From NCBI RefSeq assembly GCF_000981585.1, contig NZ_LN831776.1, forward strand, positions 2,247,001 to 2,311,000: 64,000 nt of DNA. The letters run 5' to 3'. This document shows, piece by piece, positions 43,081 through 55,664 of the stretch. Both the position numbers and the translations under genes were made by a program. Every line of letters starts with the position of its first letter. Positions within the stretch are counted from its first letter, which is position 1. The notes under the pieces were generated by a model that worked only from the letters and a program-made list of their open reading frames with translations, was not told where the DNA came from and searched no databases. Origin of the DNA: Paenibacillus riograndensis SBR5 (GTDB taxonomy: Bacteria > Bacillota > Bacilli > Paenibacillales > Paenibacillaceae).

Positions 43081-44752
43081 TGTATTTTGGAGACAATTTC
43101 ATAATTCAAAACCCTTGCTAGGATTGGTTTTTTTGAGCATAGAAAAGGGAGTACCTCCCCAAATCTCGAAGATATAGGTGACCAAACCAACATCCGAGAA
43201 TGAAAAGAGGTAATCCCCATGTATTCTATTCGGCAAGAAGAGCTGTTTTCCTTTGAGGATTTGTTGCTGATGCGACCGGAAGATAAATACAGTCAGATCT
43301 TTGAACACTTAAATCTCGCTCCGGTCTTGCACGCGCTTGGAAAAAAGAACAACCGTGGGCGGCCGGAAGAACTAAACGTACCCGCGATGATCTACTCGCT
43401 GCTCATCGCAAAAATGGAGGGCATCGAGTTTGTATCCGCGTTGGTCCGGCGACTTCGATTCAGCGAGGAATTTCGGGTGCAGTGCCGGTTCACCGGTTCC
43501 AACCGCATCCCGAGCGAAGCCTCGTACTCCCGTTTGATTCATGTGCTTGAGCAAACGGGCATGCTCGAGGACCTTCAGGATACTCTGGTGCTGTCCGCCC
43601 TGGAGGAAGAGTTCGTTACGGGTATGCATCTCGCTTTGGATTCCTCTATCGTTGAGGCTTGGGATAGCCTATTTAGCGAAGCTGCATCCAAACGCCGCGC
43701 GGCCCGCCGTGCTAAAAAGCCAAGTGATGCTCCGGTGGCTCAGCAGCTGCAGCTAGAACTCACCGAGCCCGAGTCCGAGCCTGTGGACGAGCGGCCCAAA
43801 AAACCCGTCTACCCGCCTGGACGTCCTTCTGCTGAAGAAAAGGAACGTCGGCGCAAGGAACGGGAAGCTTATGAAGAGAGCCTAGGACCGTTTGAGAAAA
43901 CCATTGAACAGATGCTGCCCTACACGTACGATGAATTGCTTGCAGCATTACCCCGGCATGCCGCGCGTTGTGACAAGAAAAATGCGAAAGGTAGACTTAC
44001 CAGTTATTACGGGTTCAAGGCAAATCTGCTGGTCGATGCGGACTGTCAGTATATTCTTAGTGGCTTATGGAGTTCGGCGAATTTGAATGACCAGCGCATG
44101 GCGGTTATCCTTCTCAAAGGCCTGCTCCTGAAGTTTCCTAGGTTAAACGTAAAGCATGTCTTGGGAGACAAAGGGTACGACAGCGCAGCCATCTACCAGT
44201 TGATTCATTCGTTAGGCGCCTATCCTACGATTCCAATGATTCACCACAAAGAGCCGCCCAAGGGAATGAACTCGGACTACAATCCCGTATGCTCACAGGG
44301 GCATACCTACCGCTACGACAGTTTTGATGCCAAGTACGAAACGCTGAAGTATACCCAGCCGAGCCAGTGCAAAGACTGTCCACTTTCCGGTTCCGGCTGC
44401 CAAAAGGTGTTTAAAATCCGCATACAAACGGATTTACGCAAGCACACCTATCCCGCAAGAGGTAGCGAGAGCTTTACAGAGCTGTACAAGAAGCGTACGG
44501 CAGTGGAGCGAGTTTTTGCATATCTTAAAGAGTATTTTGGCATGAAACGTACGCGTCACCGCGGCGTCCGGGCAAGAGTTGATTTCCAGCTCAGTACACT
44601 AGCTTACAATCTCAGCAAGTTTGCGCTAGACAAGTTAAACCAGCGGTTACGCAACTCCCAGCAAGTGGCCTGATTTTTTAAAAAATGACCTTAGATTTTG
44701 GCCGAGTCTTGCTATTCAGCAAACTGAATTATGAAATTGACTCCAAAGTGCA
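43081..44752 (+). mobile_element. IS1182-family insertion sequence
   Basis: TGTATTTTGGAGACAATTTC at 43081 and its inverse at 44725-44752 form 28-bp terminal inverted repeats with three mismatches (core TTTGGAG, CAATTTCATAATTCA). One intact transposase gene lies inside. No target duplication is obvious: the left flank is the tandem array, the right flank is different sequence. The exact ends are uncertain by about 5 bp. Confidence 0.85.
43219..44673 (+). CDS. IS1182-family transposase
   Basis: An intact 484-aa DDE transposase. The N-terminal part (FEHLNLAPVLHALG, GRPEELNVPAMIYSLLIAK) is the DUF772-type domain found in IS1182/IS5-like elements. Candidate catalytic residues are Asp141 (LALDSSIVEAWDS), Asp317 (LGDKGYDSA) and Glu430 (RTAVERVFAYLKEYFG). 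A charged insert lies at about 150-225. No frameshift is present, so the element may still be active. AGAGGTAA precedes the ATG. Confidence 0.93.
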   Translation: MYSIRQEELFSFEDLLLMRPEDKYSQIFEHLNLAPVLHALGKKNNRGRPEELNVPAMIYSLLIAKMEGIEFVSALVRRLRFSEEFRVQCRFTGSNRIPSEASYSRLIHVLEQTGMLEDLQDTLVLSALEEEFVTGMHLALDSSIVEAWDSLFSEAASKRRAARRAKKPSDAPVAQQLQLELTEPESEPVDERPKKPVYPPGRPSAEEKERRRKEREAYEESLGPFEKTIEQMLPYTYDELLAALPRHAARCDKKNAKGRLTSYYGFKANLLVDADCQYILSGLWSSANLNDQRMAVILLKGLLLKFPRLNVKHVLGDKGYDSAAIYQLIHSLGAYPTIPMIHHKEPPKGMNSDYNPVCSQGHTYRYDSFDAKYETLKYTQPSQCKDCPLSGSGCQKVFKIRIQTDLRKHTYPARGSESFTELYKKRTAVERVFAYLKEYFGMKRTRHRGVRARVDFQLSTLAYNLSKFALDKLNQRLRNSQQVA

Positions 44753-44829
44753 ATTAAAACCAGTTGGACTGCCAAAAGGCAGCTATTAACTGTACGAAGT
44801 GCAATTATTGCTGTAAAGCAAAGCAAAAC

Positions 44830-44860
44830 ACAAAGCACTGCCCTATGGGCAGTGCTTTGT
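44830..44860 (-). terminator. Perfect 14-bp hairpin, terminator of the minus-strand gene
   Basis: ACAAAGCACTGCCC tat GGGCAGTGCTTTGT. On the minus strand it is followed by GTTTTGCTTTG. Confidence 0.75.
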
Positions 44861-44878
44861 GGCGAGTAGGCTCTGAAG

Positions 44879-45406
44879 TCATGGAGTGTACTGCTGTACG
44901 ATCGAAGTAACTTTGCCAGCCTGGATTGTGATGTGGTAAGGGGACTGGCTCAGGTCGATGATGCCGGTTTTGGCGAATTCGCTGATGAACTTATCAAGAG
45001 ATATGTGCTCATTCCAGTTGATATCCAGATCCTCCATGTGCCCGGTATGATCGTAAATTTGCATCGTTACCGCAGCATTATCGGCAATGGGATAGGAAGT
45101 AAGCGAGTCACTGTCATTTACGATATAGTAGCCATCCGGCGTACCGCCAAGCTCTGCCGCTGCGTCTGGCTCCCGTTCGGCAAAGATGCGGTCGGCTTCA
45201 GCGCCTTCATACCATTCGATCTGGTCGGCGGTCATGACCGTATGTCCGTCTTTGGACTTCAGCGCGTGTATGTAAACCGTCAATTCCTGACTTTTATCAC
45301 CGCTTTGCGCTTCTGCGCGTGTACCTACTGTACTTGCCGTAGTCACAAGGGAGAGGAACAGCAGAACCAGAGCAGGAAACAGATAAACCGATTTTCTTTT
45401 GAACAT
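44879..45406 (-). CDS. Secreted hypothetical protein
   Basis: A 175-aa protein with a clear signal peptide (MFKRKSVYLFPALVLLFLSL, cleavage likely after a following Ala) and a mature part of about 140 residues. The mature part has many acidic residues and the segments DQIEWYEGAEADRIFAE, DGYYIVNDSDSLTSYPI and PYHITIQAGKVTSIVQQYTP. I recall comparable small exported Paenibacillus proteins without known function. AAGGGGGAA precedes the ATG at 45406. It stands alone, facing away from the YhgE/Pip gene. Confidence 0.75.
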   Translation of the reverse strand: MFKRKSVYLFPALVLLFLSLVTTASTVGTRAEAQSGDKSQELTVYIHALKSKDGHTVMTADQIEWYEGAEADRIFAEREPDAAAELGGTPDGYYIVNDSDSLTSYPIADNAAVTMQIYDHTGHMEDLDINWNEHISLDKFISEFAKTGIIDLSQSPYHITIQAGKVTSIVQQYTP

Positions 45407-45628
45407 GTAAAATTCCCCCTTGGTATAAATATGACCCGGTATACGTCTATATACCTAATTACCCTTCGCTGTATTTCTCAAACGGGTATTATATCTCTAT
45501 AAACGTAGATCGCGAAAAAATGTTGCAAAAAGTTTCCGAACTGTGGTGCGGGAAAGTAAGGGAAGTAAAAAGAACTGCTCCAGGGCATATTAAACTATTC
45601 AGATTACAGCATAGAGGTGTGGTGAAAC

Positions 45629-48307
45629 ATGGCGGCAGTGTGGCGGATTTATAAAAAAGATTGGCTGGGCCTGTTCAAAGCACCGGTAGCCCTATTGTTG
45701 ATAGCAGCACTCGCATTGCTTCCCTCGGTCTACGATTGGGTGAATGTCGCTGCGGTATGGGACCCCTACAGCAATACATCCGGCATCCCAATCGCCGTGG
45801 CGAGTGTGGATCAGGGAGCTTCTGTCGGTGGCAAAAGCTTCAACATCGGCGATGAGGTGCTGGAGAGCCTGCGGAGCAACAAGTCACTGGGCTGGCGGTT
45901 CACGGATGTTAAATCGGCAGAGCGCGGGGTGCAGCGCGGGGATTATTATGCCAGCATCGTCATTCCGGCAGAATTCTCACAGCGGATGGCGGGGGTTCTC
46001 GAAGGGGAACTTGTGAAGCCGGAGGTGGATTATACCGTCAATGAAAAAATCAACGCGATTGCGCCCAAAATTACGGCGAAAGGGGCTTCTACGATTACCG
46101 CGCAGATCAGTGAGCGGTTCACGGAAACCCTCAGCAGCACGGTGCTGACGGCCCTCAGTGCCATCGACCGCGAATTCCAGGCTGAGCTGCCGGTCATCCG
46201 CAAGGTGGAGCAGGGGCTGTTCCAGCTGGAGGCGGGCCTGCCGGAGATTGAACAGGCCGGGAGGCTGGTGCTCAAGCTTCAGCAGGACTGGCCGCAGCTT
46301 GCGGATTCGGCCGGGAGGATTGCCGCGCTTGCGGACAAGCTGCCGGAAGTGGAGCAGGCGGGCAAAGCGGCTGAGCTGCTCGACGAGCACTGGGGGCAGA
46401 TCAGCGATGCCGCGGGCAGGCTGCAGGAGCTGCAGGGCAGGCTCCCGGATCTGGCCCGCGCGAAGGAGCTGCTGTCCGGCCTGGATGCTGACTTCAGCCG
46501 GGTCGGGGAGGTCCTGGACCGGGCCTCGGACAGGCTGGAGGAGGCCGGGAAGGTTGTTGCTGCGGCTGCCCGGGCTCTGCCGCAGACCGACCGGATCGCT
46601 GCAGCGGGGCCTGCCTTCGGGCAGGAGCTGCTGCAGTATCTGGCACAGAACCGCGCGGCTTTCACCGCGGTTCCGCAGGTGCTGCAGCAGAATCTCCATC
46701 TGCTGCAGCAGAATGCCGACAGCGCAGCGCTGCTGGCCAGCCAGCTCGCGGAAGGCACCGCGCCGCCGGACGCAGCGGCGGCTTCCCGGCTGCAGCTGGC
46801 CGCTGACCGGCTGACCGCCGGAAGCGGCGCGCTGCAGCACACGGCGGCTCTTTTCGCCGCCGTGAACACCCTCGCGCCCGGCACCGTGCCGGGCAGCGAG
46901 CTCCGCGCCCTGACCGGGGCGCGGGCCTCCTGGGCCGCCGGTGCTGCGCAGGCGGCCCGCCTCGCCGCCGGGCTGCGGGACGGCGGCGGGCTGGACCCCG
47001 CCGCGCTGGCGCAGCTTGGCGGGGATTCCGCCAAGGGCGCAGCAGCGCTGGGCGGAATCCTCGCGCGCTACAGCGCGGAGGGGCAGTCTGCGCTGCAGGG
47101 CACGCTGCAGCAGCTGACATCCGTGGCGGGGACCGCCGCCACGGCCTTGCAGCAGGCGCCGCAGCGGCTGGCGGCGCTGAGCGCGGTGCTGGATGAAGCG
47201 GGAACCGCCATCCAGTACGGGCAGACCGGCCTGGCCGCCTTGCGGGACAAGCTGCCCGCGGCAGCGGGCGAGGTCAGCGCGGCGGCAGCCGGTATAAGCG
47301 GCAGGCTGGCAGCGTTCACCGGCTTCGTGACGGATGTGCTGCCGCGCATTCAGAATGGGCTGCCTGCTGCCGGAGAACACATTCATGCGGCGGCTGAATT
47401 CGCCCGGAAGGACCTGCCGGGGGCGGAGGAGAAATTCCGCCGCGCGTCAGAGTGGATCACCGCCGGCCTTCCCCGTGCAGACCGGGGGGTGAACCGGGCG
47501 GCCGAGCTGGTGCGGAATGATCTTCCCGCCCTGGAGCATGCTGTCCGCCGCGCCGCCGATACGGTCCGCAAGGTCAAGCGGGAGGTCAACCTGGAGGAAA
47601 TCGCCCAATTGCTGGGCGGGGATATCAAGGGCACCAGCGATTTTCTGGCCAGCCCTGTGGTTCTGAAGGAAAAGGCGCTGTATCCCATCCCCAATTACGG
47701 ATCGGCGATGACACCGTTTTACGTAGTATTGTCCTTGTGGGTAGGCGGCACCCTGCTGATTTCTCTGCTGCGGATCGGTGTGGATACCGGTGGTATCCCA
47801 TACCGGCGGCACCAGCTGTATTTTGGGCGCCTGCTGACTTTTCTTACCGTAGGCATCTTTCAGGCTCTGATAGCGGTATTGGGCAATATGTATTTGCTGA
47901 AATGCTATGTTGCCGACAAGCTGTGGTTCGTGCTGTTTGCCGTCCTGATCAGCATCGTTTTTGTGACAATCGTATTTACCCTGGTCTACGTCTTCGGCAA
48001 TCTGGGCAAAGGCATAGCCATCGTGTTCATGGTGCTCCAGTTCTCCAGTTCGGGCGGGACTTTTCCGATCAGCACCACCGGGCGCTTTTTTCAAATCCTG
48101 AACCCGTTTATGCCCTTTACCTATGCCATCAGCCTGCTGAGAGAAGCCGTTGGCGGCATACTGCCGGAGGTTGCTGTCCGTGACGCCCTGTATCTGGTTC
48201 TTTTCGGTATGCTTGCCCTGGTGCTGGCGCTTACCCTCCAGAAGCCGCTGGAACGGTTCATCCGGCGTGCGGCAGAGCAGGCAGAGGCGTCCAGGCTGAT
48301 CTCCTAA
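45629..48307 (+). CDS. YhgE/Pip-type membrane protein (ABC-2 permease-like)
   Basis: An 892-aa protein. It has one N-terminal helix (about 15-35), then the conserved IPIAVASVDQGASVGGKSFNIG region of YhgE/Pip proteins. A very long, Ala/Leu/Gln-rich, probably extracellular helical region (about 200-660) follows, then five or six C-terminal helices, with YGSAMTPFYVVLSLWVGGTLL and a cytosolic basic tail. Relatives include phage-infection protein Pip and type VII secretion-associated YueB. The middle part is markedly GC-rich compared with both ends. RBS AGAGGTG. Role here unknown; it could bind phage or export something. Confidence 0.85.
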   Translation: MAAVWRIYKKDWLGLFKAPVALLLIAALALLPSVYDWVNVAAVWDPYSNTSGIPIAVASVDQGASVGGKSFNIGDEVLESLRSNKSLGWRFTDVKSAERGVQRGDYYASIVIPAEFSQRMAGVLEGELVKPEVDYTVNEKINAIAPKITAKGASTITAQISERFTETLSSTVLTALSAIDREFQAELPVIRKVEQGLFQLEAGLPEIEQAGRLVLKLQQDWPQLADSAGRIAALADKLPEVEQAGKAAELLDEHWGQISDAAGRLQELQGRLPDLARAKELLSGLDADFSRVGEVLDRASDRLEEAGKVVAAAARALPQTDRIAAAGPAFGQELLQYLAQNRAAFTAVPQVLQQNLHLLQQNADSAALLASQLAEGTAPPDAAAASRLQLAADRLTAGSGALQHTAALFAAVNTLAPGTVPGSELRALTGARASWAAGAAQAARLAAGLRDGGGLDPAALAQLGGDSAKGAAALGGILARYSAEGQSALQGTLQQLTSVAGTAATALQQAPQRLAALSAVLDEAGTAIQYGQTGLAALRDKLPAAAGEVSAAAAGISGRLAAFTGFVTDVLPRIQNGLPAAGEHIHAAAEFARKDLPGAEEKFRRASEWITAGLPRADRGVNRAAELVRNDLPALEHAVRRAADTVRKVKREVNLEEIAQLLGGDIKGTSDFLASPVVLKEKALYPIPNYGSAMTPFYVVLSLWVGGTLLISLLRIGVDTGGIPYRRHQLYFGRLLTFLTVGIFQALIAVLGNMYLLKCYVADKLWFVLFAVLISIVFVTIVFTLVYVFGNLGKGIAIVFMVLQFSSSGGTFPISTTGRFFQILNPFMPFTYAISLLREAVGGILPEVAVRDALYLVLFGMLALVLALTLQKPLERFIRRAAEQAEASRLIS

Positions 48308-48374
48308 AACCTTGGTCTGACCGTGGAACACCTAATTCTTTCCTGTCAACCTGTGTTCAACCTGCCAATGAACA

Positions 48375-48415
48375 TTGACCTGTGCCATAGGAGAACCTAA
48401 GATATAGGAATATCT
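48375..48415 (+). promoter_or_regulatory. Promoter and dyad upstream of the RRNPP regulator
   Basis: TTGACC (48375-48380), 17 bp, TAAGAT (48398-48403). A perfect dyad AGATAT agga ATATCT (48400-48415) starts at the -10 box, a suitable place for autoregulation by the encoded HTH protein. Confidence 0.55.
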
Positions 48416-48456
48416 GGATTATCGTTCAAATATATGGTTCTTAGGACGGTGTTTGT

Positions 48457-49854
48457 TTGCAATTCAAAAATACAATACAAGCAAAACTTGACGCTTACTT
48501 GAAGAGAGAAGGCATCACCATCAATCAGTTTGCCGGAATATCGGGTGTGAACTCCGGTACGCTCAGCAGCATTATTAATGGGAACCGTCCCGTTGCCGTG
48601 AAGCAATTGGACCGGATTACAGCGGGAATGGGACTTCCCGAAGGTGAATGGTATGAATTATATATAGATGAATATGTTGTCAACTCCACCCCTGACTGGC
48701 GGCGGCTGGGACCTTTTCTGCAGCGCTGTGCGGAGCTGGACAAGCTGGAATGCATCCGGCAGGTAGTGCGGACCATTATGGATAATATATCCTATGCCCA
48801 GGCGGTATTTGAAATGGGGGAGGAATGGTTCGGGCAAGGCAAACGCCAGGCGGCTGCGCTGCTGTACGAGGGCGTGGCGGAAAGTGAGAAGTATCAGCAT
48901 TCAGAGCGGCTGGCCTTATGCCAATACCGCTTGTTCAAGATTGCGCTGGGACAAGACCAGGAAGCGAATCTGCGCGCGGCGATGCATTTTGAATACTTTG
49001 TGGAACGTCTGGATGAGGCGGACCAGTTGAATGCGCTGAAGGACTTGGCGAATATTTACGCTTCCTTGCACCGCTGGGATACAGTTGATTCTTTGGCGGA
49101 AAAAATGGGACACAAAGCTTCCATCCAGTACCACAATAAATATCATAAAGTCAGCCGCCGTGCGGCACAAAAGGAAACCGCCAGACCTCTTTGCTTCTAT
49201 ATTCTGTATTCGCATCTGCTGCGATCGGCTGTTTGTGCTGAACACGGGGATTACGGACAGGCCCTCCACTATGTCTCGCGTTATTCCGATTTCAGCTGGG
49301 TCCAGGAGAGAACGGAAGAGGCCCGGCAGATCATGGAGCAGTTCAGGGAATGGGCCGAGGCCAATACATATCTGTACCGCCTGATGTCAGGAGAGACGGC
49401 TGTGCTTGCCGGCTATGTCGATTTTATCAGCACCAGAGAGAACGAGATCATTCCGGGCCTGACCAAAATCATGCAAGCGGCCAACCGCTTTGGCTTGAAC
49501 GTGGATTCTATTATTGAGCGCTTCGAACCCCACGCGGGCTTGAAAGAGCAACGGACCCTGATGGGGAAACGGAATATGCAGGTCACCGAAGATCAATATG
49601 CGGTTCTATTATTTGAGCTGTCTGTATATTATTTAAAAACTCAAAGAGTTCACAGGGGGCTCGCTTATTTACTTCAAAATCTGGACCTTTCTGTTAGAAT
49701 GAACAGTGACAGTGCTATTGTTGGGTGTGTAGCATTATTTGAGCAGTACAGACATCTAAGCTCCGTCGAAGACCGGGAACGATATAAAATTCTAATTGGT
49801 GAGGTGCAGAAGACTGATGAAAAGAAAAGTGGCTCTGCTGCTGGCAATAGGTAG
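48457..49854 (+). CDS. RRNPP-type peptide-responsive HTH/TPR regulator
   Basis: A 465-aa cytosolic regulator. The N-terminal XRE-type HTH (about 8-60) shows GITINQFAGISGVNSGTLSSIINGNRPV. The remaining 400 residues are all helical with TPR-like repeats (for example ALCQYRLFKIALGQDQEANL and LKDLANIYASLHRWDTVDSLAEKMG). This is the plan of PlcR, PrgX, AimR and the Paenibacillus Alo receptors, which change DNA binding or partner binding when a re-imported peptide enters the TPR groove. The start is TTG at 48457; no ATG is near. Its last 38 bases overlap a secreted-peptide gene in another frame, the usual receptor-pheromone arrangement. Confidence 0.85.
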   Translation: MQFKNTIQAKLDAYLKREGITINQFAGISGVNSGTLSSIINGNRPVAVKQLDRITAGMGLPEGEWYELYIDEYVVNSTPDWRRLGPFLQRCAELDKLECIRQVVRTIMDNISYAQAVFEMGEEWFGQGKRQAAALLYEGVAESEKYQHSERLALCQYRLFKIALGQDQEANLRAAMHFEYFVERLDEADQLNALKDLANIYASLHRWDTVDSLAEKMGHKASIQYHNKYHKVSRRAAQKETARPLCFYILYSHLLRSAVCAEHGDYGQALHYVSRYSDFSWVQERTEEARQIMEQFREWAEANTYLYRLMSGETAVLAGYVDFISTRENEIIPGLTKIMQAANRFGLNVDSIIERFEPHAGLKEQRTLMGKRNMQVTEDQYAVLLFELSVYYLKTQRVHRGLAYLLQNLDLSVRMNSDSAIVGCVALFEQYRHLSSVEDRERYKILIGEVQKTDEKKSGSAAGNR

Positions 49855-49951
49855 CATTGTTTTGGCTGTAGAAGCCCGGGCATGGGTGATGCAAACCGCT
49901 TCCGCCCATTCAAGCATTGAGCCTTTGACACATGGAATAGGCGCCGAATAG
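49817..49951 (+). CDS. Secreted signalling pro-peptide (Phr/AloP-like)
   Basis: A 44-codon gene starting inside the 3' end of the receptor gene. GAGGTG lies ten bases before its ATG. The peptide has a basic start (MKRK), a hydrophobic core (VALLLAIGSIVLAVEA), two possible signal-peptidase sites (after ARA at 22 and ASA at 30) and a short polar tail HSSIEPLTHGIGAE. This is a typical exported pheromone precursor: the active signal would be a 5-8 residue piece of the tail, for example around THGIGA, re-imported by an oligopeptide permease and bound by the upstream receptor. The mature form is inference. A terminator follows at 50011. Confidence 0.78.
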   Translation: MKRKVALLLAIGSIVLAVEARAWVMQTASAHSSIEPLTHGIGAE

Positions 49952-50010
49952 GTCTATGACTGAAGTAACGTGATTTTGTCAGGCGGTTGATTGTTCAAAA
50001 GCAAACCAAG

Positions 50011-50037
50011 CCTCTCTTTCACAAGAGAGGTTTTATT
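50011..50037 (+). terminator. Terminator of the receptor/peptide unit
   Basis: CCTCTCTT tcac AAGAGAGG followed by TTTTATTT. The first IS200-type element begins directly in this T-rich tail. Confidence 0.9.
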
Positions 50038-50123
50038 TAGGCTTTAGCCAGTTGAGTGCGTGAAACGCGCGAAACAAAAAACCACCCGCTATGCGGGTGG
50101 AGGGATGTAGGGTTTGACCACCA

Positions 50124-50176
50124 AGACCATTCCGATAAAATTGAGATGTTCAGGCTCAATTGGAAAGGAATGGTCT
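50124..50176 (+). promoter_or_regulatory. Stem-loop hiding the tnpA ribosome site (copy 1)
   Basis: AGACCATTCC (50124-50133) pairs with GGAATGGTCT (50167-50176), and the inner AATTGAG with CTCAATT. The tnpA ribosome site GGAAAGGAA lies in the 3' half, four to ten bases before the hairpin end. The same structure is at 53168-53220 in copy 2. Confidence 0.75.
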
Positions 50177-50179
50177 TAG

Positions 50180-50653
50180 ATGGCAAACAAGAGCTACAGT
50201 TTGGCTCACACAAAGTGGATGTGCAAATACCACATTGTATTCACCCCGAAGTATAGACGGAAAGAGATCTATAATCAAGTGAGAAAAGACTTGATCGAAA
50301 TCTTCAAACGTTTATGTAAATACAAGGGAGTCGATATTATCGAAGGTCACATGATGCCAGATCATGTACATATGCTCGTAGCGATCCCACCCAAAATCTC
50401 AGTATCCTCGTTTATGGGCTATCTGAAGGGGAAGAGCTCCCTGATGATATTTGAGAAGCATGCCAGCTTAAAGTATAAGTATGGCAATCGCAAATTTTGG
50501 GCGGAGGGATACTACGTCAGCACGGTAGGCCTAAATGAAGCCACAGTAGCAAAATATATACGTGAACAAGAAGCACATGACCAAGCGATTGATAAATTGA
50601 GTGTGAAAGAATACGAAGACCCGTTCAGTAGAAACAGTAGCAAGAAGAAGTAA
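50180..50653 (+). CDS. tnpA: IS200/IS605-family transposase TnpA, copy 1
   Basis: A 157-aa HUH single-strand transposase. The metal-binding pair is His62-Val-His64 in MPDHVHMLVAIPP, and the nucleophile is most likely Tyr126 in NEATVAKYIREQ. Full length and intact. Acts as a dimer on the subterminal hairpins. The upstream 66-codon frame at 50056 is an artefact of the leader. Confidence 0.95.
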   Translation: MANKSYSLAHTKWMCKYHIVFTPKYRRKEIYNQVRKDLIEIFKRLCKYKGVDIIEGHMMPDHVHMLVAIPPKISVSSFMGYLKGKSSLMIFEKHASLKYKYGNRKFWAEGYYVSTVGLNEATVAKYIREQEAHDQAIDKLSVKEYEDPFSRNSSKKK

Positions 50654-50876
50654 ACCAGTTTAACTGGTAAGTGAAAGGGACAACAACACTGAGCCTGAAC
50701 GATTTATTGTCAGGCTAGCGTCTTTAGGCGCAGTTTGGCAACAAGGGGTTATACCCCAAGAGCAAACCACCCGTTGGACGGGTGGTTCTGATTGCATTCG
50801 GGGCATTGCTTTTGTACCCAGGTGTGTTTGAGGGTTGTTCTGTCAGTCACTTTGGTTTTAACATGAATCATTACAC

Positions 50877-51014
50877 ATGAAACTAACAACAGAGAGCGTT
50901 ACTGTTAGACAAATCAGCAATGAAGGTTTTTACGGAAAGTTTTTCGTTTTTGAGGACCTGGATGGAAACTTATTTGATGTATGGGAGCATAAAGATTGTG
51001 AGTTAATCTTTTAA
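50877..51014 (+). pseudogene. Glyoxalase/VOC-fold protein remnant
   Basis: A 45-codon piece reading ESVTVRQISNEGFYGKFFVF, then EDLDGNLFDVWEHKDCELIF, the last strands of a VOC (glyoxalase-fold) domain, including the Glu of the final DxWEH motif. An in-frame stop (50859) precedes it and the N-terminal two thirds are missing. The sequence from 51015 to 51290 holds only further debris with no recognisable domain; a 67-codon frame at 51071 has no ribosome site. Confidence 0.65.
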
Positions 51015-51294
51015 GAAAGCAATCTAAGCTACGAGAATTAGGCGAACAGAATCTGACCTGGAAGTTAACATTGTTTATTGCAAGGATAAGCAAACCCGAG
51101 GACGTCTGCATGCGGCAATTCCGCAACCGTCCAAAAGAATTAAAGAAACTGCCACGAAACTGCATGGCATCGGGAACAATACCTGCCTTCGTACTCAAAC
51201 ATTTAGTCGACATCGGCATGTTAAAAGTGTCTGATGAAGCATTCATATTCAAAAATTGGACACCCTATCTGTAAACATGGATGAGGTGTAATCA

Positions 51295-51759
51295 ATGCTT
51301 ATGATAAGAGTCATTATAGCTGTGGTTCTAACTGTGACATTGAGCCTGTCATCTCCCTTGCAATCAAACGCAGAAGCTAGTTATCGCGTTCCTCAGGAGG
51401 ACTCAGAGGAGCTGAGATTGCAGGATATGCTTTTGAATTTTTTAACTCCATATATTAATGATGCTGTCCGGGATTATTATCGACGTTTATTAGTGGAACC
51501 GCCGCTAGTATATCCATATTTCGTTAATGTGGTCGACTCAATGAGGATAAATGAGTTTCGTGGTTTCAACTTATCGATAACGCTCGATGTAACGCCTGTT
51601 GTCGGACCACATATTTCTGTTGGAGAAGACAGGTTAACGTTTCAAATCTCAGTGGGACCTGAGGTTAAACTGGTTAATTACATCCACTTAAAGAGTTATG
51701 AACTCCCTCCTCATTGGCAGAACATTGTAAAGAATATGCTAACGGGAAACAAAAGCTAA
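51295..51759 (+). CDS. DUF3888 domain-containing secreted protein
   Basis: A 154-aa protein with a signal peptide (MLMIRVIIAVVLTVTLSLSS, cleavage near SNAEA). The mature part matches DUF3888: EELRLQDMLLNFLTPYINDAVRDYY, YFVNVVDSMR and ITLDVTPVVGPHISVGEDRLTF. GAGGTG precedes the ATG. Probably acts outside the cell; function unknown. A terminator follows directly. Confidence 0.85.
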   Translation: MLMIRVIIAVVLTVTLSLSSPLQSNAEASYRVPQEDSEELRLQDMLLNFLTPYINDAVRDYYRRLLVEPPLVYPYFVNVVDSMRINEFRGFNLSITLDVTPVVGPHISVGEDRLTFQISVGPEVKLVNYIHLKSYELPPHWQNIVKNMLTGNKS

Positions 51760-51770
51760 AACACGATAGG

Positions 51771-51803
51771 GCAGCCGGTCAGTAAACGCGATCGGCTGCT
51801 TTT
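51771..51803 (+). terminator. Terminator of the DUF3888 gene
   Basis: GCAGCCGGTC pairs with GATCGGCTGC, followed by TTTTG. The sequence that follows (ATTGAACTAACAGGCAGGAT and a few bases on) is repeated behind the terminator at 53050, where the second IS200 copy has split it. Confidence 0.85.
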
Positions 51804-51987
51804 GATTGAACTAACAGGCAGGATAGTTCCAATTTGTGGTATCATTAAATTCAGTATAATATTTGCATCGGGGGTTGGTAGTTATTAATAAAAAGAACTT
51901 GTCCAAGGAATATATGAGTGATTTTTTAGCTATTAGAGAATTTGATAATGAATAGGACCCTAGAATTCGACTAGGAGGCGGCCTACG

Positions 51988-52974
51988 GTGAAAGACTCGG
52001 CAAGACTGTTTGATTTTCAAGCGGTTAACGAAGACATGGTCAGAAGGCTGTTCTCCGCTTTCGACCCCAAGGCAAGCATTACCCAAGTCTCGCCCTTGAC
52101 GAAAGGCATGAGCACCAGCAATTATGCCTTACGGACAGACAGCGGCAGTAGGTATGTGTTAAGGATTTATCCCGCTAACAACGACCACAGCGGGATTGAG
52201 GCTGCAGCCTATCAGTATGCAAAAACAAAGATTCGCACCCCTGAGATTTTCTTCTTCGATGATAGCAAGCAGATTATCTCTTTTTCTTACCTAATCATGG
52301 TGTTCATTGAAGGCTCGACGCTAGGGGACTTTATTGCCGAGAACGAGGGATGTCCCGACCATGTCGTGCATCGAATCGGCAGCTCGCTTGCCTTGCTGCA
52401 TCAAACCAAATATTCGCATATGGCGCTGTTAGACGAGCATTTGCAGATCGCGGGACAGCTTGAATCCTTCGCGAGCCAATATTACACCTTGCTAAACGGC
52501 CTTGCAGGAACCCACATTCAACCTTCAACCAAAGAGAAGTGCATGCAATTCCTGGCGGATCACGCTGAATTGGTAGAGAGGATTGCAGATAAGCATGTGT
52601 TCTCGCATGGCGATTTCATTTTCTCCAATATTATGGTCACGCCTTCATTGGAGCCTTGTTTCATCGACTACGAGTACTGTTTCGCGGCGCCTGTCTTTTA
52701 TGACATAGGCAAATTCTTTAGGACAAGGACGCAAGTCGAGCGCTATATCGGCGCAGACACCATTGCCGCCTTCGAGGAAGGCTACAACCGTAACGCGCGA
52801 GAGCCTTTGCCCGGGGAGTGGTACGCGCTGTCCAAGCTTGCCGACATATCCACCATGCTCCACCTCATTAATAAATCGCAAATTCCTGACGGTTGGGGAT
52901 CGGCGATTAATGGTGAGATCGAGAAGAATTTGAAGCTGCTGGCCGGGGAAGCTGAGCCGTTATTGGATAAATGA
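51988..52974 (+). CDS. Aminoglycoside-phosphotransferase-family kinase
   Basis: A 328-aa protein with the eukaryotic-like kinase fold of APH/choline kinases. The ATP site begins near TKGMSTSNYALRT, the catalytic loop is HGDFIFSN (207-214) and the metal-binding Asp is in FIDYEY (Asp227). It phosphorylates a small molecule; antibiotic, sugar or choline-like substrates are all possible, and no resistance is claimed. It starts with GTG behind TAGGAGG. Confidence 0.88.
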   Translation: MKDSARLFDFQAVNEDMVRRLFSAFDPKASITQVSPLTKGMSTSNYALRTDSGSRYVLRIYPANNDHSGIEAAAYQYAKTKIRTPEIFFFDDSKQIISFSYLIMVFIEGSTLGDFIAENEGCPDHVVHRIGSSLALLHQTKYSHMALLDEHLQIAGQLESFASQYYTLLNGLAGTHIQPSTKEKCMQFLADHAELVERIADKHVFSHGDFIFSNIMVTPSLEPCFIDYEYCFAAPVFYDIGKFFRTRTQVERYIGADTIAAFEEGYNRNAREPLPGEWYALSKLADISTMLHLINKSQIPDGWGSAINGEIEKNLKLLAGEAEPLLDK

Positions 52975-53008
52975 ATTGGGATTTTGGTATTAAATACTGA
53001 CAGTAATC

Positions 53009-53078
53009 ATTGAGCTATCGGGGATCGTTAGCTCAATAAAAACAAGAAGGCAGCTGATCAACGTGATCGGCTGCTTTT
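53009..53078 (+). terminator. Two hairpins behind the phosphotransferase gene
   Basis: First, ATTGAGCTA (53009-53017) with TAGCTCAAT (53029-53037). Second, GCAGCTGATCA acg TGATCGGCTGC (53050-53074) followed by TTTTG, a good intrinsic terminator. The second IS200 copy begins right after it. Confidence 0.8.
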
Positions 53079-53079
53079 G

Positions 53080-53837
53080 TTTAGGCTTTAGCCAGTTGAG
53101 TGCGTGAAACGCGCGAAACAAAAAACCACCCGCTATGCGGGTGGAGGGATGTAGGGTTTGACCACCAAGACCATTCCGATAAAATTGAGATGTTCAGGCT
53201 CAATTGGAAAGGAATGGTCTTAGATGGCAAACAAGAGCTACAGTTTGGCTCACACAAAGTGGATGTGCAAATACCACATTGTATTCACCCCGAAGTATAG
53301 ACGGAAAGAGATCTATAATCAAGTGAGAAAAGACTTGATCGAAATCTTCAAACGTTTATGTAAATACAAGGGAGTTGATATTATCGAAGGTCACATGATG
53401 CCAGATCATGTACATATGCTCGTAGCGATCCCACCCAAAATCTCAGTATCCTCGTTTATGGGCTATCTGAAGGGGAAGAGCTCCCTGATGATATTTGAGA
53501 AGCATGCCAGCTTAAAGTATAAGTATGGCAATCGCAAATTTTGGGCGGAGGGATACTACGTCAGCACGGTAGGCCTAAATGAAGCCACAGTAGCAAAATA
53601 TATACGTGAACAAGAAGCACATGACCAAGCGATTGATAAATTGAGTGTGAAAGAATACGAAGACCCGTTCAGTAGAAACAGTAGCAAGAAGAAGTAAACC
53701 AGTTTAACTGGTAAGTGAAAGGGACAACAACACTGAGCCTGAACGATTTATTGTCAGGCTAGCGTCTTTAGGCGCAGTTTGGCAACAAGGGGTTATACCC
53801 CAAGAGCAAACCACCCGTTGGACGGGTGGTTCTGATT
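53080..53837 (+). mobile_element. IS200-type insertion sequence, copy 2
   Basis: The same 758-bp element as copy 1, differing at one synonymous position, offset by 3044 bp. It lies behind the T-tract of the second hairpin and interrupts a repeat whose uninterrupted relative is at 51771-51830, which gives a near-empty-site comparison. Confidence 0.9.
53224..53697 (+). CDS. tnpA: IS200/IS605-family transposase TnpA, copy 2
   Basis: A protein identical to copy 1 (157 aa, HUH pair His62/His64, likely nucleophile Tyr126). The only nucleotide change is a silent GTC to GTT in a Val codon. Ribosome site again lies within the leader stem-loop. Confidence 0.95.
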   Translation: MANKSYSLAHTKWMCKYHIVFTPKYRRKEIYNQVRKDLIEIFKRLCKYKGVDIIEGHMMPDHVHMLVAIPPKISVSSFMGYLKGKSSLMIFEKHASLKYKYGNRKFWAEGYYVSTVGLNEATVAKYIREQEAHDQAIDKLSVKEYEDPFSRNSSKKK

Positions 53838-53946
53838 CAGCTAACGAGCAGGATAGTTTAATTAAAGACGTTATCTATTGTCCGTGCCCTATTGAGTTTT
53901 GTTAGAATATTATTAGATTTTTATGAGGCATTAAGGAGGGATTAAG

Positions 53947-54219
53947 TTGAGGATTGTCTTTGCAACAGACTCAGACTATGAATACATACGAAACCGTGAC
54001 CATCATATTTCTGAGAGCTTAATACTGTCAAAAATAAAAGAAAATGAGATATACATTCTGCGAAGTCAGGATGAAAGCAATATCGGATGGATGAGGTATG
54101 GATACTTTTGGGACAACACCCCTTTCATGAACATGATTGTGAACTGGCCCCGGCAAGCAGGCAGTTGTGATCCTTCAACTATAAGGATTGCAGCTGCTTT
54201 GTTTTTTGTATATACATAA
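53947..54219 (+). pseudogene. Truncated GNAT-type acetyltransferase
   Basis: The frame starts with TTG behind AGGAGG and reads MRIVFATDSDYEYIRNRDHH, later EIYILRSQDESNIGWMRYGYFWDNTPFMNMI, the first half of a GNAT fold. After MNMI the sequence becomes unrelated (VNWPRQAGSCDPST and so on), and the acetyl-CoA-binding motif is missing. Probably dead, cut by a rearrangement. Confidence 0.65.
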
Positions 54220-54323
54220 GCATCGTAAGGTTTAATTAAGAATCTAGTAATAAATAAGAGAATTTTAGAAGCTAAAATATATATCATAACAAACCAATCT
54301 AAAAGTATATCAGGAGGATTTTT

Positions 54324-55664
54324 ATGAAAAAGAAGATGGGTATCGCAATTGCTGCTTCTATTATCACTCTAACTAGTTTTACAGGAGGTACTTATGCATC
54401 TTCGAAAGCAGAAGTTTCTGTTACAGCCCCCTACAACACAAATCAGATAGCCGAACAGATAAAATGGTTAGAAGAGCATGCAATGCCATTAAAGACAACG
54501 GATCCAACAGCCTCTCTTCAGGATTTAAGTCCGCTTAAGAATATGATAGGATCAGCTACAATTGTTGGTTTAGGTGAAGCGACGCATGGAGCTCACGAAG
54601 TTTTTACCATGAAGCATCGCATTGTTAATTATTTGGTACATGAAATGGGCTTTAAGGCCTTAGTGTTAGAAGAGGGATGGGACAGAGCATTGGAACTCGA
54701 TCGCTATGTTCTTACGGGTAAAGGGGACCCAAGCCAATATCTAAATCCTGTATTTAACACGAAAGAAATTGTAGATCTGCTTCAATGGATTCGCCAATAT
54801 AATGCTGATCCAAAGCATAAATCCAAAATACGGATCATCGGGATGGATATCCAAAACGTAAACGAGAGTGTTTATAACAATATCCTAGTGTATGTAAAGA
54901 AATACGATTCAAAACTTGCCACTCGTTTCGAACAAAAGATGAAAGGCCTTATTCCTGTAACCAAGGATCTGGATACCTTTGGCGGCCTTAAGAAAGAAAA
55001 AAAGGAGCAATATATTTCAGATGCGAAACAAATCGGTGCTTTATTAGAACAAAATAAAAGTAAACTGAATGGAAAATCCCCAGAGTTCGCATGGATCAAA
55101 CAAAATGCCCGTATTATCGAGCAATTTACGACAATGGTAGCGGCATATCCTGATAACCTGAAAGACTTTTATTTGAAACATGATATTGCCATGTATGAAA
55201 ATGCGAAGTGGACAGAAGAACATGTAGGAAAAACAATCGTATGGGGCCATAATGGGCACGTTTCGAAGACAAACATGATCCCTTTTGTATACCCTAAAGT
55301 AGCTGGGCAGTATTTAGCAGAACATTATGGAAAACGGTATGTATCCATTGGAACATCTGTCTATGAGGGACGTTACAATGTTTATAACAGTAAACAAGAA
55401 TTTGGGCCCTTTGGAACATTAAAATTGGATGACCCGAGTAGTTTTAACTATTCGTTTGGACAAGTCCATTACGACCAGTTTTTTGTTGATTTACGTAAGG
55501 CAAGCGGAGTGACAAAAACGTGGCTAAACGAACAACATCCGATTTTCGCCGGAATAACTACCGTAGGTCCAGATATCCCGACAACTATTGATTTATCATT
55601 AGGTAAAACATTTGATATCATTGTTCAAATTCAGAAAGTGAATCCGTCTCAACTGAACCGATAA
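54324..55664 (+). CDS. Erythromycin-esterase-family secreted protein
   Basis: A 446-aa protein with a signal peptide (MKKKMGIAIAASIITLTSFT, cleavage near TYASS). The Ere-family motif GLGEATHGAHE supplies Glu85 and His88, and later WGHNGHVSK holds another active-site His of the family. Relatives open macrolide rings in Ere enzymes, but many homologs have no known substrate, so resistance cannot be assumed. AGGAGG precedes the ATG. The gene is AT-rich relative to its right-hand neighbours. Confidence 0.9.
   Translation: MKKKMGIAIAASIITLTSFTGGTYASSKAEVSVTAPYNTNQIAEQIKWLEEHAMPLKTTDPTASLQDLSPLKNMIGSATIVGLGEATHGAHEVFTMKHRIVNYLVHEMGFKALVLEEGWDRALELDRYVLTGKGDPSQYLNPVFNTKEIVDLLQWIRQYNADPKHKSKIRIIGMDIQNVNESVYNNILVYVKKYDSKLATRFEQKMKGLIPVTKDLDTFGGLKKEKKEQYISDAKQIGALLEQNKSKLNGKSPEFAWIKQNARIIEQFTTMVAAYPDNLKDFYLKHDIAMYENAKWTEEHVGKTIVWGHNGHVSKTNMIPFVYPKVAGQYLAEHYGKRYVSIGTSVYEGRYNVYNSKQEFGPFGTLKLDDPSSFNYSFGQVHYDQFFVDLRKASGVTKTWLNEQHPIFAGITTVGPDIPTTIDLSLGKTFDIIVQIQKVNPSQLNR

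Follow-up and report, generated by a model that had tools for sequence, protein, structure and literature searches.

An intact aloR-aloP pair in Paenibacillus riograndensis SBR5 with strong support for membership of the Alo family

The question raised by this locus is whether a regulator gene and the small open reading frame (ORF) that overlaps its 3′ end form an intact peptide-signaling pair, and of which kind. The locus lies on the + strand at 48457–49951 of a 64,000-nucleotide stretch of P. riograndensis SBR5 (the window; contig NZ_LN831776.1, 2,247,001–2,311,000), whose 7.92-Mb genome is a single contig. A previous description made without database searches (the sequence-only reading) had proposed an RRNPP receptor and a secreted pro-peptide like the Alo pairs of Paenibacillus polymyxa. 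From the genes themselves, their homology and conservation, the predicted fold of the receptor, and the promoter-like and terminator-like anatomy around them, we hold with high confidence that the two genes are an aloR-aloP pair, intact and belonging to the Alo family, that would act in RRNPP-type quorum sensing by the mechanism set out below.

The receptor gene, aloR (48457–49854), has a reading frame of 465 amino acids (aa) with a TTG start; the four in-frame codons separating this TTG from the upstream stop contain no alternative start. It is preceded by the ribosome site AGGACGGTG (48443–48451, +), and all eight aligned aloR loci described below have nGGTGTTT ahead of a TTG or GTG start. 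The product is predicted to have an N-terminal helix-turn-helix (HTH) at about residues 5–65 and a TPR-like superhelix at about residues 80–455, as the sequence-only reading had claimed. The HTH_3 match scored 20.1 bits (E 0.00066), just below the curated Pfam cut-off of 23, and none of the TPR models matched AloR in the Pfam search. Most published AloR TPRs are under the TPRpred threshold, so that homology is needed too (PMC7425212). The TPR assignment comes from the predicted structure (mean pLDDT 88), which has helices at residues 7–57 in the HTH part and 19 helices beyond residue 65, and which aligned with TPR superhelices over residues ~110–455 in a fold search. NprR-NprX, Rap, and PlcR-PapR structures were among the matches in the PDB; the top rows were generic TPR proteins, with the RRNPP receptors present and not singled out. 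The model is TPR-type, as expected of the RRNPP superfamily, but generic TPR proteins match it too. On the model, AloR is a protein with an N-terminal HTH and a C-terminal TPR-like fold.

The second gene, aloP (49817–49951, +), is an ATG ORF of 44 codons in another frame, with the translation MKRKVALLLAIGSIVLAVEARAWVMQTASAHSSIEPLTHGIGAE. It overlaps aloR by exactly 38 nt (49817–49854), and its ribosome site, GAGGTG (49801–49806, +), lies within aloR, 10 nt ahead of the ATG. The product has a hydrophobic N-terminal core, scored by a hydrophobicity script, that resembles a signal peptide, followed by AxA sites at A20-R21-A22 and A28-S29-A30. It ends in THGIGAE (codons 38–44; 49928–49948, +), the predicted mature signal or its core. 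All of these features had been described before and were confirmed on the sequence.

To ask how well the arrangement is kept, we aligned the window with seven orthologous loci. AloR identity to the window was ~97–98% in L056, 92% in L057, 90% in L058, 82% in L059, 78% in L152, 74% in L060, and 60% in L061; the closest genome by AloR is G033 (97%), and relatives with names, by aloR identity, are Paenibacillus jilunlii (92%), P. graminis (90%), and P. helianthi (82%). In all eight loci aloP starts 38 nt ahead of the aloR stop, behind an identical GAGGTG. A constant offset in every locus indicates that the ORF is not a product of chance, and the expectation that orthologs would keep it was borne out. 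The first AxA site was ARA or APA in the window and its five closest orthologs and was absent from L060; the second AxA position was AST in L152 and L059. The AloP tail was THGIGAE in four loci, including the window, THGVGAE in two, and SHGTGLD and IHGTGS in the others. The protein collection held one AloP relative, 89% identical.

Selection on aloP was examined by pooled pairwise counts over the seven loci of equal length; because of shared ancestry, these values are descriptive. For codons 14–44, dN/dS was ~0.28, with a pS/pN of 0.51/0.21 in frame and of 0.29/0.28 and 0.19/0.31 in the +1 and +2 frames, neither of which had a synonymous excess. The lowest value for any part of the ORF was that of codons 37–44 (dN/dS ~0.12, pS/pN 0.59/0.13). 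Among the four closest loci the pooled counts, which are small, were 26 synonymous and 13 non-synonymous changes. Because purifying selection was seen only in the aloP frame and was strongest in the tail, we conclude that aloP is a protein gene whose tail matters most.

The Alo (AloR-AloP) family was described in P. polymyxa (Voichek et al. 2020; PMC7425212), where its members in strain ATCC 842 were defined by BLASTP against two seed genes (E below 1e-5, length at least 250 aa). AloR of the window has 41% identity over 459 aa (E 1e-111 in the search of the collection) to a protein on the ATCC 842 plasmid NZ_CP024796.1, which we call AloR-type. The gene for this protein likewise shares 35 nt with an ORF of 43 codons whose N-terminus is hydrophobic. 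Published Alo systems and the window pair are alike in having a receptor with an N-terminal HTH and a TPR-like domain and many paralogues per genome. Their pro-peptides, of 32–50 aa with an N-terminal hydrophobic helix, were sought also in overlap with the 3′ end of aloR (PMC7425212), and AloP of the window fits this description. For Alo13, experiments showed that expression activated by AloR13 is switched off by the C-terminal hexamer SHGRGG (PMC7425212), which has the same HG core as THGIGAE. The window pair differs from the published ones in standing beside yhgE, in having no spo0E-like gene found behind it, in its tail THGIGAE, and in being closed by a terminator. Alo13 itself was not recovered: searches by SHGRGG codons or by patterns derived from primers found it in 0 of 100, 0 of 245, and 0 of 100 genomes, the first pattern lacking some Ser and Arg codons. 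The homology, the predicted TPR fold, the overlapping layout, and the SHGRGG-like tail together give strong support to the assignment of the pair to Alo. It is a real and conserved pair, and an ordinary one for the family.

The pair was also compared with other RRNPP systems, to which the Alo family is described as having no strong similarity (PMC7425212). AimR-AimP (arbitrium) also combines an HTH and TPR receptor with a short secreted peptide, and, as with Alo13, the AimP peptide reduces expression of the gene that follows. The arbitrium system is, however, known from temperate Bacillus phages, and the AimR NCBIfam equivalog model scored far under its cut-off on AloR (12.7 of 70 bits, residues 12–54 only). 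Rap-Phr pairs likewise join a TPR receptor to a short peptide gene and occur several to a genome, but Rap, unlike AloR, has no HTH (PMC9765709). No significant sequence similarity to NprR-NprX or PlcR-PapR was found, and a PHROGs search gave HTH-type matches only (best E 1.8e-5).

The wider family was examined for the recurrence of such peptides. AloR had matches at E<=0.001 in 36 of 60 genomes, its own included (35/37 within the genus and 1/23 outside it), with up to 14 in a single genome; in the protein collection, 1081 of 7999 scored proteins matched at E 0.001. The window's own genome has eight long receptors (that of the window and those at 490225, 7402692, 6665332, 896916, 5738994, 7400834, and 7464893); partial receptors occur as well. 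Eight receptor ends in this genome carry an AloP-like ORF whose tail contains HG: those of every long receptor but 7400834 (seven of the eight) and that of the partial receptor at 4205499. The fragments ending at 6130524 and 7710952–7711667 had no AloP-like ORF. These ORFs give at least eight differing HG tails in one genome (THGIGAE, THGLGE, SHGWGV, NHGEG, VHGG, GHGIGGD, EHGIGY, and NHGVDY). The paralogue at C1:5738994–5740354 is split into two frames near residue 42, with its aloP tail GHGIGGD still present.

Across 124 AloR-like receptor entries, 85 had any hydrophobic short ORF, 73 had one with HG in the last 14 residues, and 69 had the strict type (ATG, ribosome site, overlap, hydrophobic stretch, and HG in the last 14 residues); these counts are lower bounds, because the entries are partly redundant, being overlapping or early-ending loci. 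The strict type followed none of 379 control ORF ends, and the loose rule with HG was satisfied at 2/379. In a first control set, 5/387 ends were of the strict type; the 379 ends come from a rebuilt set, from which AloR-like genes, 25 strict cases among them, had been removed by BLASTP. These results bear on the idea that AloR is an ordinary XRE-type regulator and that the small ORF is fortuitous or encodes a non-signaling membrane micropeptide, such as one whose role is limited to adjusting translation where aloR ends. Peptide activity in the window pair is indeed argued by analogy, and 39 of the 124 entries had no candidate ORF (in some, the locus or contig stops short), so a receptor can exist alone. 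We nevertheless regard this explanation as very improbable: constraint on the ORF is greatest in its tail, secreted-type ORFs ending in HG recur behind receptors and not behind the controls, and fragments of nine AloP peptides were detected in culture medium, with AloP13 active in P. polymyxa (PMC7425212).

When 71 pairs were aligned on HG, the second G of an HGxG pattern was present in 54, with x variable (I 12, G 12, A 11); SHGRGG, the signal shown to function in Alo13, conforms to it. The HG tail is not universal, in that the ATCC 842 plasmid pair ends in STQGYIGGA and some candidate ORFs have no HG. Co-variation of receptor and peptide, which the sequence-only reading had proposed as a check, was also examined. 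In the 71 pairs, tail distance correlated with TPR distance (r 0.53), but the correlation with HTH distance was as high (0.57), and the partial correlations were 0.11 for TPR given HTH (permutation p 0.012) and 0.25 for HTH given TPR (p 0.001). For residues 1–20 of AloP, the correlation with the TPR part exceeded that of the tail (0.77, partial 0.54). Co-variation of the tail specific to the TPR domain was therefore not seen, and shared descent explains the correlations.

Several other members of the family had unusual arrangements. In L146 (G041, from another genus of the order) an AloP-like pro-peptide has a doubled tail, SHGDGYGTTSVVVVNSHGDGY, and is a possible double-signal precursor. Four aloR-like genes lie within 7 kb in L083 (G006) and three within 9 kb in L120 (G004); in each locus a single one of these genes came with an HG peptide ORF. 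Brevibacillus phage SecTim467 (L195; KT151957.1, 67399–68823) carries an AloR-like gene of 27% identity, with a Spo0E-annotated gene directly upstream and an overlapping 45-codon ORF without an evident signal-peptide core; this phage is not named in the main text of PMC10075063.

We then considered how the pair is transcribed. A promoter-like sequence, TTGACC (48375–48380), 17 nt, and TAAGAT (48398–48403, +), with 9/12 consensus matches, precedes aloR; TTGACC and TAA[GT]AT were conserved in all eight aligned upstream regions, as was much of the upstream sequence as far as the ribosome site. A putative AloR operator, CTAAGATATAGGAATATCTGG ... TTCAAATATATGG (48397–48437, +), overlaps and follows the −10 hexamer. 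It is conserved over the eight loci, with a deviation in L061 and single-base differences in others, and the 25-mer starting at 48397 occurs once in the genome when up to 3 mismatches are allowed. Behind aloP, an intrinsic terminator (50011–50037, +) consists of a stem at 50011–50030 followed by TTTTATTT. The terminator scan reported this stem on the − strand only; the + strand assignment is supported by the RNA fold of 49998–50046 (−17.5 kcal/mol, z −4.8), and L056 has the same stem. No Rfam family reached its gathering threshold within 44000–55000. With its own promoter and a terminator after aloP, aloR-aloP would be a closed bicistron, not interrupted by the IS200 element that follows.

That element raises the question of whether the window copy, although derived from a real pair, is decaying or disconnected. 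The first IS200 element begins at about 50036, at the end of the terminator T run, downstream genes differ among the orthologs, and broken alo copies exist in the same genome (matches in three pieces, 6129890–6131138). Both reading frames of the window copy are intact, however, with an AloR dN/dS of ~0.14 among the four closest loci, and the promoter hexamers, both ribosome sites, the hairpin, and the tail are the same as in the 97% identical ortholog L056, which lacks the insertion. Decay or disconnection is therefore very improbable.

The possible targets of the intact pair were sought first among its neighbors. The gene directly upstream encodes a YhgE/Pip family membrane protein (45629–48307, +; TIGR03061 and TIGR03062 above cut-off), and the sequence-only reading had named it as a candidate target. 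In favor of a dedicated regulator of yhgE, the gene is directly upstream and in the same orientation in seven of the eight loci, window included; the adjacency is also explained by shared descent of one neighborhood. In genome G027, which keeps aloR-aloP, no yhgE reached E<=1e-50 among the 25 candidates scored out of 38 from the first look. Conversely, G001, G007, G011, G022, G023, G034, and G036 carry a yhgE of 56–71% identity, with the listed AloR-like matches away from it in six of the seven (the position in G034 was not listed). In addition, aloR has its own promoter, and the region upstream of yhgE has other conserved blocks (~TTACCC ... GGGTATT), with no aloR-type TTGACC element seen there by eye. 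Because of G027 and of the genomes in which no pair adjoins yhgE, we do not take yhgE as the target, and dedicated control of it is unlikely.

Downstream, 36 of the 124 receptor entries had a same-strand spo0E-like gene no more than 2.2 kb away, two of these matches being weak. Behind the window pair and its orthologs there was none at E<=0.05 in seven ortholog entries (L152 being outside the scan), over a span of 2.2 kb except for the window copy (L009; 1.5 kb) and L060 (0.75 kb, to the contig end). No downstream gene was common to all of the orthologs. Because the terminator closes the unit and no downstream gene is conserved, the outputs would most likely be the pair's own promoter and promoters elsewhere, not an adjacent spo0E.

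Promoters elsewhere were examined by motif searches. TTGACC stood upstream of 60 of 119 AloR-like entries, compared with 2.4 on average and 7 at most when the sequences were resampled 50 times by a Markov model, an excess that relatedness inflates. The pattern TTGACCTGTGNNATN7CCTAA had its only exact match at the window, with two 2-mismatch sites that had no AloR. A paralogue promoter pattern, ATTGACCRNTGNNATATT, had three exact sites in the same genome, all before aloR genes and none before a lipoprotein-like gene, and three 1-mismatch sites, none near AloR; the window's aloR promoter carries TTGACCTG and not the full pattern. In 61 genomes ATTGACCRNTGNNATATT gave 43 exact sites in 20 genomes, and the reversed control gave none. 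Of the 31 sites inspected, 18 were before AloR-coding sequence, 9 before a lipoprotein-like gene, and 4 before neither. Because ATTGACCRNTGNNATATT was built from alo promoters, only the lack of further recurrent targets is informative. The sites before lipoprotein-like genes lie ~100–160 nt ahead of them, in L166, L168, L171, L173, L177, L184, L186, L192, and L193 from other Paenibacillus genomes.

The following mechanism is proposed, with export, cutting, import, binding, and the sign of regulation modeled on Alo13; like these, the targets are inferred. A single transcript would run from the TTGACC-17-TAAGAT promoter to the hairpin behind aloP. AloR and the 44-aa AloP would both be translated from it, AloP probably by translational coupling at the 38-nt overlap. 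AloP would leave the cell by the Sec pathway with a cut near A-R-A22, and trimming outside would yield a short C-terminal peptide containing THGIGA(E). Re-imported by an oligopeptide permease, this peptide may bind in the TPR groove of AloR and alter its DNA binding. By analogy with Alo13, apo-AloR would activate transcription and the peptide would switch it off.

Other genes near the pair lie outside the unit. The IS200-like Y1 transposase gene (50180–50653, +; PF01797) has a second copy at 53224–53697; the identical blocks begin at 50036 and 53080, so that the copies are ~3 kb apart. A gene on the − strand (44879–45406) encodes a secreted-looking protein of 175 aa without a Pfam or NCBIfam match at E 0.001; it is kept beside yhgE and directly adjoins aloR in G027. 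An erythromycin-esterase domain gene (54324–55664; PF05139, E 9e-64) has a 93% identical counterpart in L056.

Among the listed matches in the open-licence literature, no further paper was evidently about AloR, and the text of PMC7425212 is silent on an HGxG tail signature and on an alo promoter under the wording motif, consensus, or binding site. As far as that literature shows, the tail signature, the recurrent promoter element, and a yhgE-adjacent branch without spo0E are new, if modest, additions. We tentatively suggest, as an idea with less than an even chance of being right, that this branch of Alo has lost its tie to the sporulation phosphatase and forms a self-contained channel; closed by its terminator, the module would chiefly regulate its own level and work in trans. 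The paralogues would then share a residue-His-Gly-residue-Gly grammar, with the residues around HG naming the channel, and the genome would have at least eight HG signals, several of them driven from a shared TTGACC-nn-TG-type promoter through which the channels could regulate one another. For the Paenibacillus sonchi/jilunlii/graminis group, the locus adds a cleanly conserved Alo pair whose predicted signal can be synthesized, and the tail signature and alo promoter element lead to testable predictions on signal specificity and on cross-talk among the Alo channels of one cell.
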